Shown here in pieces: positions 26,978 to 47,082 of a DNA stretch of 64,000 nucleotides. Made by a program: the position numbers and the translations under genes. The stretch is taken from assembly GCF_001550065.1 (NCBI RefSeq), contig NZ_LRUB01000035.1, positions 310,001 through 374,000 on the forward strand, in the 5' to 3' direction. Under the pieces are notes generated by a model. It saw only the letters and a program-made list of their open reading frames with translations. It was not told the DNA's origin and did not search any database. The DNA is from Kordiimonas lipolytica (lineage in GTDB: Bacteria > Pseudomonadota > Alphaproteobacteria > Sphingomonadales > Kordiimonadaceae). Within the stretch, counting starts at the first letter, position 1, and the number at the start of each line of letters is the position of its first letter.

Positions 26978-26991
26978 TGACAGCGCTATCA
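26978..26991. promoter_or_regulatory. LacI-type operator, copy A (transporter / lacI gap)
   Basis: TGACAGCGCTATCA, a 14-bp near-palindrome with the central AGCGCT typical of LacI-family sites. It lies 52 bases before the transporter start and 73 before lacI, so both genes, and the regulator itself, may be controlled from here. One of six copies in the window. Confidence 0.85.
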
Positions 26992-27064
26992 TATTTACGT
27001 GACTGTCGCAATAGCAACGCTATAGTGTTATTCAGGCTTTGTCGAGCGACGCAGGAGTGTAGAA

Positions 27065-28093
27065 GTGGATGATTTAAAGGGAAAAAACGCGACCATCAGT
27101 GATGTCGCCCGGCTTGCTGGCGTGTCGATGAAGACCGTCTCCCGCGTGCTTAACAACGAAAAATATGTCTCGAAGGACAAGAAGGAAAAGGTGCTGGCCG
27201 TTGCGGCTGAGCTCAACTACCGCCCGTCGTTGCAGGCCCGTGGGCTTGCAGGCAACCGGTCTTTCATGATTGGCCTGTTTGTTGATGACCCTAGCGGTGA
27301 TTATATTTCCAAGGTTCAGCGCGGCATTCTGCGTCGGTGTGAAGAAGCTGGCTGTCATTTGGTTGTCGATGTACTCAGAGAACGCGGCAACGATGCCAAA
27401 CTTCGTCAAATCCTGAACAGCATTCGGTTCGATGGCGTGGTCCTGTCGTCGCCTGTGTGTGATGATGTGACGGTTCTGGACGCCCTTCGGGAGCGCCAGG
27501 TGCCCACCGTGCGGATCGGTCCAGGCGTGGATGCCAAGGACATGGGTCAGATCGAGATAGATGATTTCAAGGCCTCTTTTGAAGCGACCGAATATCTGAT
27601 CAAGGCTGGGCACAAGCGTATCGCTTTCGTCAAAGGTGACCCGAACCACGGGTGTTCCCTTGACCGGGAGCAGGGCTATTCCAAGGCCATGCGGGCCCAC
27701 GGGCTGCCTGTCAGTAACGATCTGGTTGTGCCCGGCATGTTCTCGTACGACAGTGGCTATCAAGCGGCCGAAAAGCTGCTGGCGGTCAACGGCCGGCCAA
27801 CCGCAGTCTTTGCTAGTAACGATGAAATGGCTGCAGGCGTTGTCGCCTGTGCCCAGGCGCATGGATTGCGTGTGCCGGGTGACCTTTCTGTCATGGGGTT
27901 CGATGACGACTTCCTGGCAACCATCATATCACCCGCAATTACCACTGTCCGGCAACCGATCGAGGACATGGCCGCGCGTGCGGTCGACCTTATTCTGGAA
28001 GCGAAAGGCAAAAGTGCCGCGCTCGAAGATAAGACCATTACCTTTGATTATGAGCTTGTTGTCCGTAAATCTGTTCAGAAGGTTTCTGCGTAA
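27065..28093 (+). CDS. LacI-family transcriptional regulator of the glucan/glycogen locus
   Basis: Residues 9-55 are a LacI helix-turn-helix: ATISDVARLAGVSMKTVSRVLNN, then KVLAVAAELNYRPSLQARGLAG as the hinge helix. The remaining 280 residues form the periplasmic-binding-protein-like ligand domain (SFMIGLFVDDPSG, then VVLSSPV, AGHKRIAFVKGD, AVFASNDEMAAGVVACAQAHGLRVPGDLSVMGFDDD). The ligand is likely a sugar or sugar phosphate. GTG start with an AGGAG site. Six matching palindromes near metabolic genes in this window are its probable operators. It would normally repress until the sugar is present, although activation cannot be excluded. Confidence 0.92.
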   Translation: MDDLKGKNATISDVARLAGVSMKTVSRVLNNEKYVSKDKKEKVLAVAAELNYRPSLQARGLAGNRSFMIGLFVDDPSGDYISKVQRGILRRCEEAGCHLVVDVLRERGNDAKLRQILNSIRFDGVVLSSPVCDDVTVLDALRERQVPTVRIGPGVDAKDMGQIEIDDFKASFEATEYLIKAGHKRIAFVKGDPNHGCSLDREQGYSKAMRAHGLPVSNDLVVPGMFSYDSGYQAAEKLLAVNGRPTAVFASNDEMAAGVVACAQAHGLRVPGDLSVMGFDDDFLATIISPAITTVRQPIEDMAARAVDLILEAKGKSAALEDKTITFDYELVVRKSVQKVSA

Positions 28094-28286
28094 GAAACAT
28101 CAAATCAGAATTAACGGTTTCGCCGGAATCGTGAGTCGCTACATGGGGCAGGTTTAAACCTTTTCAGTATACATTTGGCGTATTTTCCCCAAATAATTGT
28201 CCGGTAGGACTGTCTTGATGCTGCTTTCTAAGTAACTGAAGTTATTGCGGGAAAAGATATTTTGCGGATTTTTGTTGGCTATAATA

Positions 28287-45742: not shown

Positions 45743-47010
45743 TAATTGTCCTCCAGCTTGTCGATCATGGTCTGGGTGATCAGGCAGACGCCTTTATCTG
45801 TGCGGCGGAAGCGGCGCGCATCCTCGACAGGGTCTTCACCCACGACAAGCCCTTTGGGAATGGTCACGCCCCGGTCAATCACCGCGTCCTTGATGCGGGC
45901 ATCCCGGTTGATGGTTACGTAGGGAAGCACAACCGTTCGCTTGAGGCGGCTATAAGAATGCGCATGCACGCCGGTGAACAGGAGAGACCGGTCAACCCGG
46001 CTACCTGACACGATGCAGCCACCGGCTACAAGCGAGTTTACGCCCGCGCCGCGGCGGCCGTCCTGGTCGTGAATGAACTTTGCGGGCGGCGTGATTTCCG
46101 CGTAGGTCCAGATGGGCCATTCGCGGTCATAGAGGTTCAGGCCAGGCTCAATGGTCGCGAGGTCGAGGTTGGCTTCCCAGTAACTGTCCACTGTGCCCAC
46201 ATCTCGCCAGTAGGCTTCTCCGCCGGGTACGGCACGCACGCAGGATTTGGTGAAGCGGTGGGCGAAGGCCTTCCCGTTTTCCACGATGTAGGGGATGATG
46301 TCCTTGCCGAAATCTCGGCTGCTTTTCGGGTTTGCGGCGTCGCGGCGCAGCAGGTCAAAAAGGAACTTGGTCTCGAACACATAGATGCCCATGGATGCCA
46401 GGCAGGCATGCGGCTTGCCCGGAATCGTGGGCGGGTCCGCCGGCTTCTCCAGGAAGTCGGTGATGAAGTCGCCATCGTCCACATGCATCACGCCGAAACC
46501 TTTGGCTTCCTCGGGCGTTACTTCCAGGCAGCCGATGGTGACATCCGCGCCAGAGTTCACGTGCTCCTCCAGCATGATTTCATAGTCCATCTTATAGACA
46601 TGGTCGCCCGCCAGGATCACCATGAATTTAGGCGCGTATGATTCGATAATGTCGATATTCTGGTATACCGCGTCTGCCGTGCCTTCATACCATTGGTTCT
46701 CGGTGACGCGCTGGCTTGCCGGTAGAATGTCGAAGCTTTCGTTCCGTTCGGCGCGGTAGAAGTTCCAGCCCCTTTGCAGGTGCCTGATCAGGCTGTGCGC
46801 CTTATATTGGGTTGCAACCCCGATCCGCCGGATACCCGAATTCATGGCGTTCGATAAGGCAAAATCGATGATCCGGCTTTTGCCGCCAAAATATACAGCT
46901 GGCTTGGCGCGCTTGTCTGTCAGCTCCTTCAGGCGACTACCGCGACCACCGGCCAGAACATATGCCATGGCATGACGAGAATACGGTTTGGATGCGAGTG
47001 GTGGGGTCAA
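45742..47010 (-). CDS. glgC: Glucose-1-phosphate adenylyltransferase (ADP-glucose pyrophosphorylase)
   Basis: Makes ADP-glucose from glucose 1-phosphate and ATP, the committed and allosteric step of glycogen synthesis. The nucleotide loop is AYVLAGGRGSRLKELTDKRAKPAVYFGGK, followed by SLIRHLQRGWNF, VILAGDHVYKMDYE and the sugar-phosphate lysine region. The C-terminal beta-helix repeats carry EDAR and related turns. 422 residues. The start is a TTG at 47010 with a very good GGGAGG site six bases before it; this yields the ~14-residue leader before MAYVLAGG seen in relatives. First gene of the five-gene operon; operator F is 58 bases upstream. Confidence 0.94.
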   Translation of the reverse strand: MTPPLASKPYSRHAMAYVLAGGRGSRLKELTDKRAKPAVYFGGKSRIIDFALSNAMNSGIRRIGVATQYKAHSLIRHLQRGWNFYRAERNESFDILPASQRVTENQWYEGTADAVYQNIDIIESYAPKFMVILAGDHVYKMDYEIMLEEHVNSGADVTIGCLEVTPEEAKGFGVMHVDDGDFITDFLEKPADPPTIPGKPHACLASMGIYVFETKFLFDLLRRDAANPKSSRDFGKDIIPYIVENGKAFAHRFTKSCVRAVPGGEAYWRDVGTVDSYWEANLDLATIEPGLNLYDREWPIWTYAEITPPAKFIHDQDGRRGAGVNSLVAGGCIVSGSRVDRSLLFTGVHAHSYSRLKRTVVLPYVTINRDARIKDAVIDRGVTIPKGLVVGEDPVEDARRFRRTDKGVCLITQTMIDKLEDN

Positions 47011-47068
47011 GGTTGCCTCCCTGTTGAAATGCGGGCATAAATCTATAATCTGGCAAATAATATTGCAA

Positions 47069-47082
47069 TGACAGCGCTATCA
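47069..47082. promoter_or_regulatory. LacI-type operator, copy F (glgC / glgP gap)
   Basis: TGACAGCGCTATCA in the 266-base divergent gap. Pairing extends across 24 bases (47064-47087) with a single mismatch. It is 58 bases from the glgC start and 194 from glgP, so the synthesis operon is the more likely target. Confidence 0.85.

Follow-up and report, generated by a model that had tools for sequence, protein, structure and literature searches.

Does a single LacI-type repressor join the uptake and breakdown of beta-glucan to the storage of glycogen? The question is raised by a stretch of Kordiimonas lipolytica DNA (the window: 64,000 nucleotides, positions 310,001 to 374,000 of contig NZ_LRUB01000035.1), in which a lacI gene, a sugar symporter gene, an operon headed by a TonB-dependent receptor (TBDR) gene, and a GH3 gene are followed directly by a divergent glgC/glgP glycogen cluster. 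Six copies of a 14-bp palindrome lie beside these genes, and the original prediction took them for the operators of one local sensor of laminarin-type sugar controlling both systems. Our analysis points instead to two layers of one LacI-type operator network, in which the lacI gene serves a local regulon and the glycogen cluster belongs to a wider glucose/central-carbon regulon, a reading to which we give a probability of about 0.55.

The six sites lie where they had been reported. In particular, TGACAGCGCTRTCA occurs exactly at 26978, 35680, 35741, and 47069, while the copies at 28287 and 28342 each differ by one end base. At up to three mismatches, the window holds 30 strand-matches, compared with a mean of 10.6 and a maximum of 22 in 100 dinucleotide shuffles. 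Scored with a matrix of 30 local-cluster sites (the glgC site excluded; 5 of the 30 being the window's own), the six reach 24.0–26.1 and the next best window position reaches 10.1, in agreement with the earlier statement that there are none elsewhere in the window. Non-coding DNA makes up 6.4% of positions 17448–60685 (a delimitation by 22 genes), and all six sites lie in gaps, also as reported. The longest GH3 reading frame, starting at 35740, would enclose the 35741 site, which is assigned to a gap because GH3 is taken to start at 35809, a likelier ATG that gives a lipoprotein-type signal by inspection. A chance origin of the six was rejected on the shuffle counts, the matrix score gap, and the shuffled glgC regions described below: the sites are genuine and far above chance. 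Five of them (26978, 28287, 28342, 35680, 35741) are part of the laminarin-type locus.

The naming of this locus rests on two of its enzymes. The locus can fairly be read as one for beta-1,3-glucan because the closest solved structure of GH16 is the laminarinase 3iln and that of GH3 is the exo-1,3/1,4-beta-glucanase 3usz; judged by such relatives, the locus combines a putative GH16 laminarinase, a putative beta-1,3-active GH3, and an outer-membrane receptor, as a laminarin utilisation locus does. The window LacI carries PF00356, PF13377, and PF00532 above cut-off, which places it in the LacI family, and its closest named relatives are Kordiimonas and Paremcibacter proteins; the LacI proteins of the nearest relatives match it at 98% and 89%. 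We took the related genomes (G numbers) as Kordiimonadaceae, a family name that follows the named proteins P0009 and P0024. Five of them (G088, G085, G055, G049, G073) encode a LacI 63–69% identical to the window's; G049 and G073 hardly differ from each other, which leaves four independent cases besides the window. TBDR, SapC, Cupin_8, halogenase, GH16, and GH3 genes surround lacI in all five, and a symporter gene in four; it was not found at the LacI locus of G085, where the divergent gene found at the single site opposite lacI is GH16. In the window and G088 the TBDR operon includes GH16; in the four remaining genomes GH16 is found at another place in the locus.

The operators of the local regulon are conserved with the genes. 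All five relatives carry an operator pair upstream of TBDR, a pair upstream of GH3, and a single site on the other side of lacI, with one member of the GH3 pair carrying two mismatches in G073 and G049. The spacing within pairs is 55–61 bp in 12 of 12 cases, window included: 55–56 bp upstream of TBDR in six of six loci (window 55, relatives 56), and 55, 56, or 61 bp upstream of GH3 in the same six. Strict helical phasing was rejected, and simple looping is not claimed, because spacings of 55/56 and 61 bp share no single helical phase. The conservation of the five sites in all five relatives supports a predicted LacI-type regulon made up of the transporter gene, lacI, GH3, and the TBDR operon including GH16, and this part of the original prediction stands.

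The same 14-mer is a predicted genome-wide operator in the relatives, beside central-carbon genes and several LacI paralogs. A genome-wide scan at up to one mismatch gave 1–21 forward matches per genome in 17 genomes, compared with 0–3 for the reversed control, and the motif exceeded the control in 16 of the 17 (21 versus 0 in G055). Sites were read in 13 relatives (G033, G040, G049, G055, G058, G070, G073, G076, G085, G088, G091, G093, G099), covering all listed exact sites and part of the one-mismatch sites; most of the 13 keep unread one-mismatch sites, and the sites of G030, G064, G052, G082, G035, G017, G102, and G105 lie outside the reading. Neighbours were named by Pfam and then by comparison with reference genes. 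Apart from the five conserved local loci, the 13 relatives hold 62 sites, including three at a lacI locus of G099. Of the 13 relatives, 11 have a site upstream of the glucokinase gene (glk), the exceptions being the partly read G033 and G099; sites also lie upstream of pckA in six, of a sodium:solute sugar symporter gene in six, of GH97 in five, of ppc in three, and of zwf in three. G033 has sites flanking zwf, a lacI, and pgi, and in G088 a site lies upstream of the pyruvate kinase gene. The original prediction would have been weakened by many sites beside unrelated genes. Such sites are the minority, with 9 of the 62 lacking a marker gene within 400 bp and one facing a Cys/Met enzyme gene. 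The nine are L135 (which faces an ADP-ribosylglycohydrolase-family gene), L149, L193, L199, L200, L204:3130, L205:7225, L207, and L141:8427. Most central genes showed just one site; pckA of G085 has two, 21 bp apart.

The regulators themselves fall into distinct clades. A tree of 59 LacI rows places the window LacI in clade A (10 rows, support 100/99), with Kordiimonas and Paremcibacter proteins; the sister clade B holds other LacIs, several of them adjoining TBDR or GH3 genes. Clade C (10 rows, support 90/95; seven-row core, 99/89) holds LacIs that adjoin glk in G093, G058, G076, G091, and G040, a symporter gene in G055, G085, G088, and G070, and GH3 in G073. The recognition-helix residues are IK in all 10 clade C rows and MK in 7 of the 10 clade A rows (the others being IK, IK, and LK). 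At the G099 locus, a distant clade A locus with a LacI 52% identical, sites lie at the symporter gene, at GH3/lacI, and at a TBDR gene. The best-scoring solved structures for the window LacI are those of CcpA. CcpA of Firmicutes is a global LacI-family carbon regulator that recognizes a similar palindromic operator, differing from the window motif at the fourth and eleventh bases, and works with HPr-Ser-P; the likeness does not imply orthology.

The sixth site, in the glgC/glgP divergence, has its centre ~66 bp upstream of the glgC start, and its exact match extends to a 24-bp near-palindrome. The matrix scan of the window found no second good match near 47069, and an operator pair at glgC was rejected on this ground. 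In a search that by inference took in all 29 family genomes, glgC was found in eight, and two of the eight carry the site upstream of it: G093 (exact) and G058 (two mismatches). The scores are 24.0 in the window, 26.1 in G093, and 17.3 in G058. Three of the nine glgC upstream regions, window included, reach 17.2 and two reach 23; among 3000 shuffles of each region, 2 of 27,000 reach 17.2 and none reaches 23. The glgC site is real, because shuffled regions almost never reach its score, and its recurrence in two of the eight relatives with glgC likewise makes chance unlikely. Its ownership is doubtful. Specifically, G055 and G085, the only relatives with both an ortholog of the local LacI and glgC, have no glgC site. 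G093 and G058 have one, together with a clade C LacI, but an ortholog of the local LacI was not detected in either (threshold E ≤ 1e-90), although both may be incomplete drafts. By inspection, the G093 site overlaps the first hexamer of TTGACA-17-TATGTT directed toward glgC. A sigma-70 scan, not used as proof, gave five matches around the lacI and TBDR promoter versus 1.2 in shuffles, two at GH3 versus 0.2, and one in the glg gap versus 1.0, the last being ATGACA-16-AATAGT, which is directed toward glgP and overlaps the site.

The flanks also set the glgC site apart. We built two flank classes from 30 local and 33 central sites, leaving out sites from G033, G099, other TBDR loci, aldo-keto reductase genes, most unannotated neighbours, and some more central sites. 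Of the sites left out, five central ones and eleven others were scored afterwards. Half-sites before TGAC mostly end in ATA or ATC in the local class and in AAT or AAA in the central class, and the leave-genome-out sign is correct for 27 of the 30 local sites and 31 of the 33 central ones. The glgC sites score −9.5 in the window, −14.6 in G093, and −5.9 in G058, compared with +5.2 to +12.1 for the five other window sites, and the sign for the window glgC site is stable over changes of pseudocount and width. Each of the five left-out central sites falls in the central class (−11.3 to −16.5 with pseudocount and width unchanged); with these five added, 36 of 38 central sites are correct and the window glgC site scores −9.1 (35 of 38 and −5.3 with a larger pseudocount). 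At the G099 clade A locus, unused in training, the scores of the three sites are 6.1, 6.7, and 0.1, two of them local. The six window sites look like two classes, five plus one.

We favour the two-layer reading, whose local layer is supported by comparison and in which binding, effector, and direction of regulation are predictions. The LacI encoded at 27065–28093 is the evident candidate binder of the TBDR pair, the GH3 pair, and the single operator between the symporter gene and lacI, and would repress these genes until a breakdown product of beta-1,3-glucan, laminaribiose or glucose, appears. The 47069 site would place glgC-glgA-glgX-malQ-pgm, glgP-glgB, or both in the genome-wide glucose/central-carbon regulon. 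The most likely regulator of the latter is a second LacI, GluR-like and of clade C, which in relatives adjoins glk or the symporter gene. When glucose is plentiful, that repressor would come off and allow expression of the storage and turnover genes. The link between beta-glucan use and glycogen would thus be a shared operator code and a common product, glucose, and not necessarily one local sensor. The best reading of the sixth site is that the glycogen operon has been recruited into a GluR-like glucose network.

Several observations weigh against this reading. The site is missing at most orthologous glgC genes, a result that also counts against the original prediction: beyond the two relatives with it, none was found at glgC in G055, G085, G070, G076, G091, and G040 (six of eight), and outside the family the best-scoring match has at least three mismatches at 22 of 22 glgC loci read, of 72 genomes found. 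The absence of an ortholog or of glgC from a genome may reflect its draft state. That the window's own genome encodes a clade C LacI is assumed from relatives, and clade C support is moderate (90/95). In G052, the motif does not exceed its control (1 versus 3), and the distant clade A locus of G033, with a LacI 53% identical, has no site at up to two mismatches. Three of the 30 local sites score non-local, and scoring restricted to the two nearest flank bases makes the window glgC site weakly non-local (−1.4 to −1.7). Non-local scores (−1.7 to −7.9) are likewise obtained for sites at four further TBDR loci, and the flank class should accordingly be read as "not local" and not as "clade C". The T beside the core in central sites makes a −35 hexamer, TTGACA, and promoter overlap may for this reason explain part of the flank difference.

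Among the alternatives, the one that fares best is a code shared by both regulators: the local LacI and the central GluR-like LacI would bind all or most sites, and 47069 would answer both signals, with coupling as cross-talk. The 14-bp cores are identical in both classes, and LacIs of clades A, B, and C all lie beside the same core; the flanks differ between the classes, however, as do the recognition residues (IK in clade C versus mostly MK in clade A). We consider this account unlikely, although it keeps a real share of the probability.

The single local repressor of the original prediction, acting on both the laminarin locus and the glycogen operon, has in its favour the sixth exact site 19 kb from lacI and the position of the glycogen cluster directly after GH3. 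Against it stand the occurrence of the motif genome-wide beside several LacI paralogs, the missing glgC site in the two relatives with both ortholog and glgC, the glgC sites of G093 and G058 where the ortholog was not detected, and the non-local flanks at 47069 (weak if two nearest bases are used). In addition, glgC and lacI lie on separate contigs in G055 and G085, so their adjacency is not general. The scheme is possible but is the weaker reading, rather improbable on this evidence.

A further alternative arises from a second LacI-type palindrome at glgC. A RCAATCGATTGY palindrome of the CAATCGATTG type lies upstream of glgC in G055, G070, and G085 (loci L227, L229, L231), and each of these genomes holds four such palindromes, compared with 0–1 in the control. 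In G055, two further copies lie at a locus with, by Pfam, MFS, GH65, HAD hydrolase, LacI, and TBDR genes; at the matching locus of G085 only LacI is named, the likeness of G070 is by gene sizes, and three further proteins have no Pfam match. The TTGCAATCGATTGCAA regulon is likely of maltose type. G093 and G058 have five such palindromes each and none at glgC, and the window glgC region has no intact one. The arms of the window glgC site match TTGCAA at 11 of 12 bases, compared with no more than 6 for any of 57 other sites, and its centre lies close to the position of the maltose-type operator in G055 (~68 bp upstream of a glgC start placed by alignment). The arms suggest an operator replaced or overlaid in place; the observation is post hoc, and they may be only a long palindrome. 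On this basis 47069 could be composite or transitional, a GluR/BglR core nested in the split half-sites (TTGCAAT...ATTGCAT) of the maltose-type operator that relatives carry at this promoter. The distance between these half-sites exceeds that in the maltose-type operator, such that a normal dimer should not bind them, and we regard a composite site as very doubtful. A broader conjecture, which we hold to be unlikely, is that the glycogen operon of the family has swapped between the maltose-type TTGCAATCGATTGCAA network and the GluR/BglR-type network. On this view the window shows the new core within the split arms of the old operator, the promoter position being almost unchanged; the arrangement would be left over from the switch or would make a composite site that responds jointly to alpha-glucan and to beta-glucan/glucose.

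That 47069 is a chance or decayed match without function, as its absence from six of eight relatives and the lack of a second good match nearby might suggest, has a near-negligible probability given an exact match extended to a 24-bp near-palindrome and no shuffled region out of 27,000 reaching 23.

The nearest described systems are in Caulobacter. Ravcheev et al. 2014 (PMC4052901) give a predicted regulon of GluR (CC2053) for central carbohydrate genes, zwf, glk, and pyk among them, and predict BglR1–3 as beta-glucoside regulators in Caulobacterales; the word glycogen is absent from the main text of that paper. A Caulobacter vibrioides LacI encoded ~1 kb downstream of zwf...glk, adjoined by GH3 and pyk, is taken as GluR by the position described there. 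It groups with Caulobacteraceae rows, a separate group (support 87/85) that may include BglR1–3, and its locus has TGACAACGTTGTCA upstream of zwf and a one-mismatch site upstream of GH3. The palindromic operator TGACARCGYTGTCA of the GluR/BglR group lies beside the regulator here too; the pattern occurs in 35 of 80 named LacI loci (65 sites; reversed pattern, 0). Variant palindromes, TGTTAGCGCTAACA and TGTCAACGTTGTCA, in or near the related LacI loci L042, L056, and L068 (Caulobacter, Rhodanobacter) hint at a wider operator series.

The network proposed here resembles that of GluR in being an alphaproteobacterial LacI control of central glucose genes with the same core operator type, as upstream of Caulobacter zwf. 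It differs in that ppc, pckA, the sugar symporter gene, and GH97 carry the site, as does the glycogen cluster in the window and two relatives, and in that the clade C LacI, though adjoining glk or the symporter gene, lies outside the Caulobacter clade. The window LacI, in clade A and beside beta-glucan genes, does not qualify as a GluR ortholog, which would be encoded immediately downstream of zwf-pgl-edd-glk and fall in the GluR clade. It is closer in kind to BglR1–3, which are GluR-paralogous: a local LacI adjoining beta-glucoside genes that have operators, 45% identical to the GluR-position protein. It falls in its own clade with Kordiimonas and Paremcibacter proteins, and operator pairs are conserved here. 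PckR (Rhizobiales) and GapR (Rhodobacterales), likewise alphaproteobacterial LacI global regulators, with PckR also covering pckA, are described as non-orthologous to each other and to GluR and as having different motifs (PMC4052901). Global regulons are taken there to have more than 15 genes, at least seven operons, and several pathways; up to six central promoters per genome have sites here (G070), plus others.

A GluR/BglR-type LacI with a laminarin-type locus is the ordinary part of this picture. Less ordinary is a glycogen operon that in the window and in two relatives has the network's putative operator, with another putative LacI-type operator there in three more relatives; among the titles and abstract openings listed from an open-licence library, we found no description of a LacI scheme joining a laminarin-type locus to glycogen. 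If the reading is true, it would provide a mechanism tying beta-glucan and glucose supply to storage in such an alphaproteobacterium, and the species would form a natural series, the same operon bearing one LacI operator type or the other. A further lesson is that neighbouring sites with a common LacI core motif need not answer to one regulator.

Table 1. Operator sites and genes of the beta-glucan locus and the glycogen cluster, in window coordinates
Feature	Position	Strand	Remarks
Operator TGACAGCGCTATCA, between the divergent MFS/GPH transporter gene and lacI	26978..26991
Operator 1 of pair upstream of TBDR operon, TGACAGCGCTGTCT	28287..28300
Operator 2 of pair upstream of TBDR operon, AGACAGCGCTGTCA	28342..28355		spacing 55 bp
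Operator 1 of pair upstream of GH3	35680..35693		with flanks, a 24-bp perfect palindrome
Operator 2 of pair upstream of GH3	35741..35754		61 bp from operator 1, likewise in G088
Operator in glgC/glgP divergence	47069..47082		flanks of non-local class, TTGCAA arms
MFS_2/GPH sugar:cation symporter	25577..26926	-
LacI-family regulator, local clade A	27065..28093	+	recognition residues MK
TBDR, TonB-Xanth-Caul type	28431..31427	+
SapC	31629..32348	+
Cupin_8	32351..33361	+
Trp_halogenase-family protein	33358..34866	+
GH16, laminarinase-like	34863..35666	+	3iln, E 7.5e-71
GH3, exo-1,3/1,4-beta-glucanase-like, probable lipoprotein	35809..38358	+	3usz, E 3.8e-238
pgm	38486..40117	-
malQ	40098..42236	-
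glgX	42229..44274	-
glgA	44282..45742	-
glgC	45742..47010	-	TTG start with GGGAGG upstream (by inspection)
glgP	47277..49715	+
glgB	49687..51942	+

The gene names assigned earlier to the transporter, lacI, TBDR, GH16, GH3, and the glg genes proved correct (Table 1). Between the window and G088, TBDR (90%) and halogenase (93%) are closely similar in sequence, and LacI (69%), symporter (65%), GH16 (76%), and GH3 (75%) less so; over 28431–38358, divergence from G088 is uneven along one locus.

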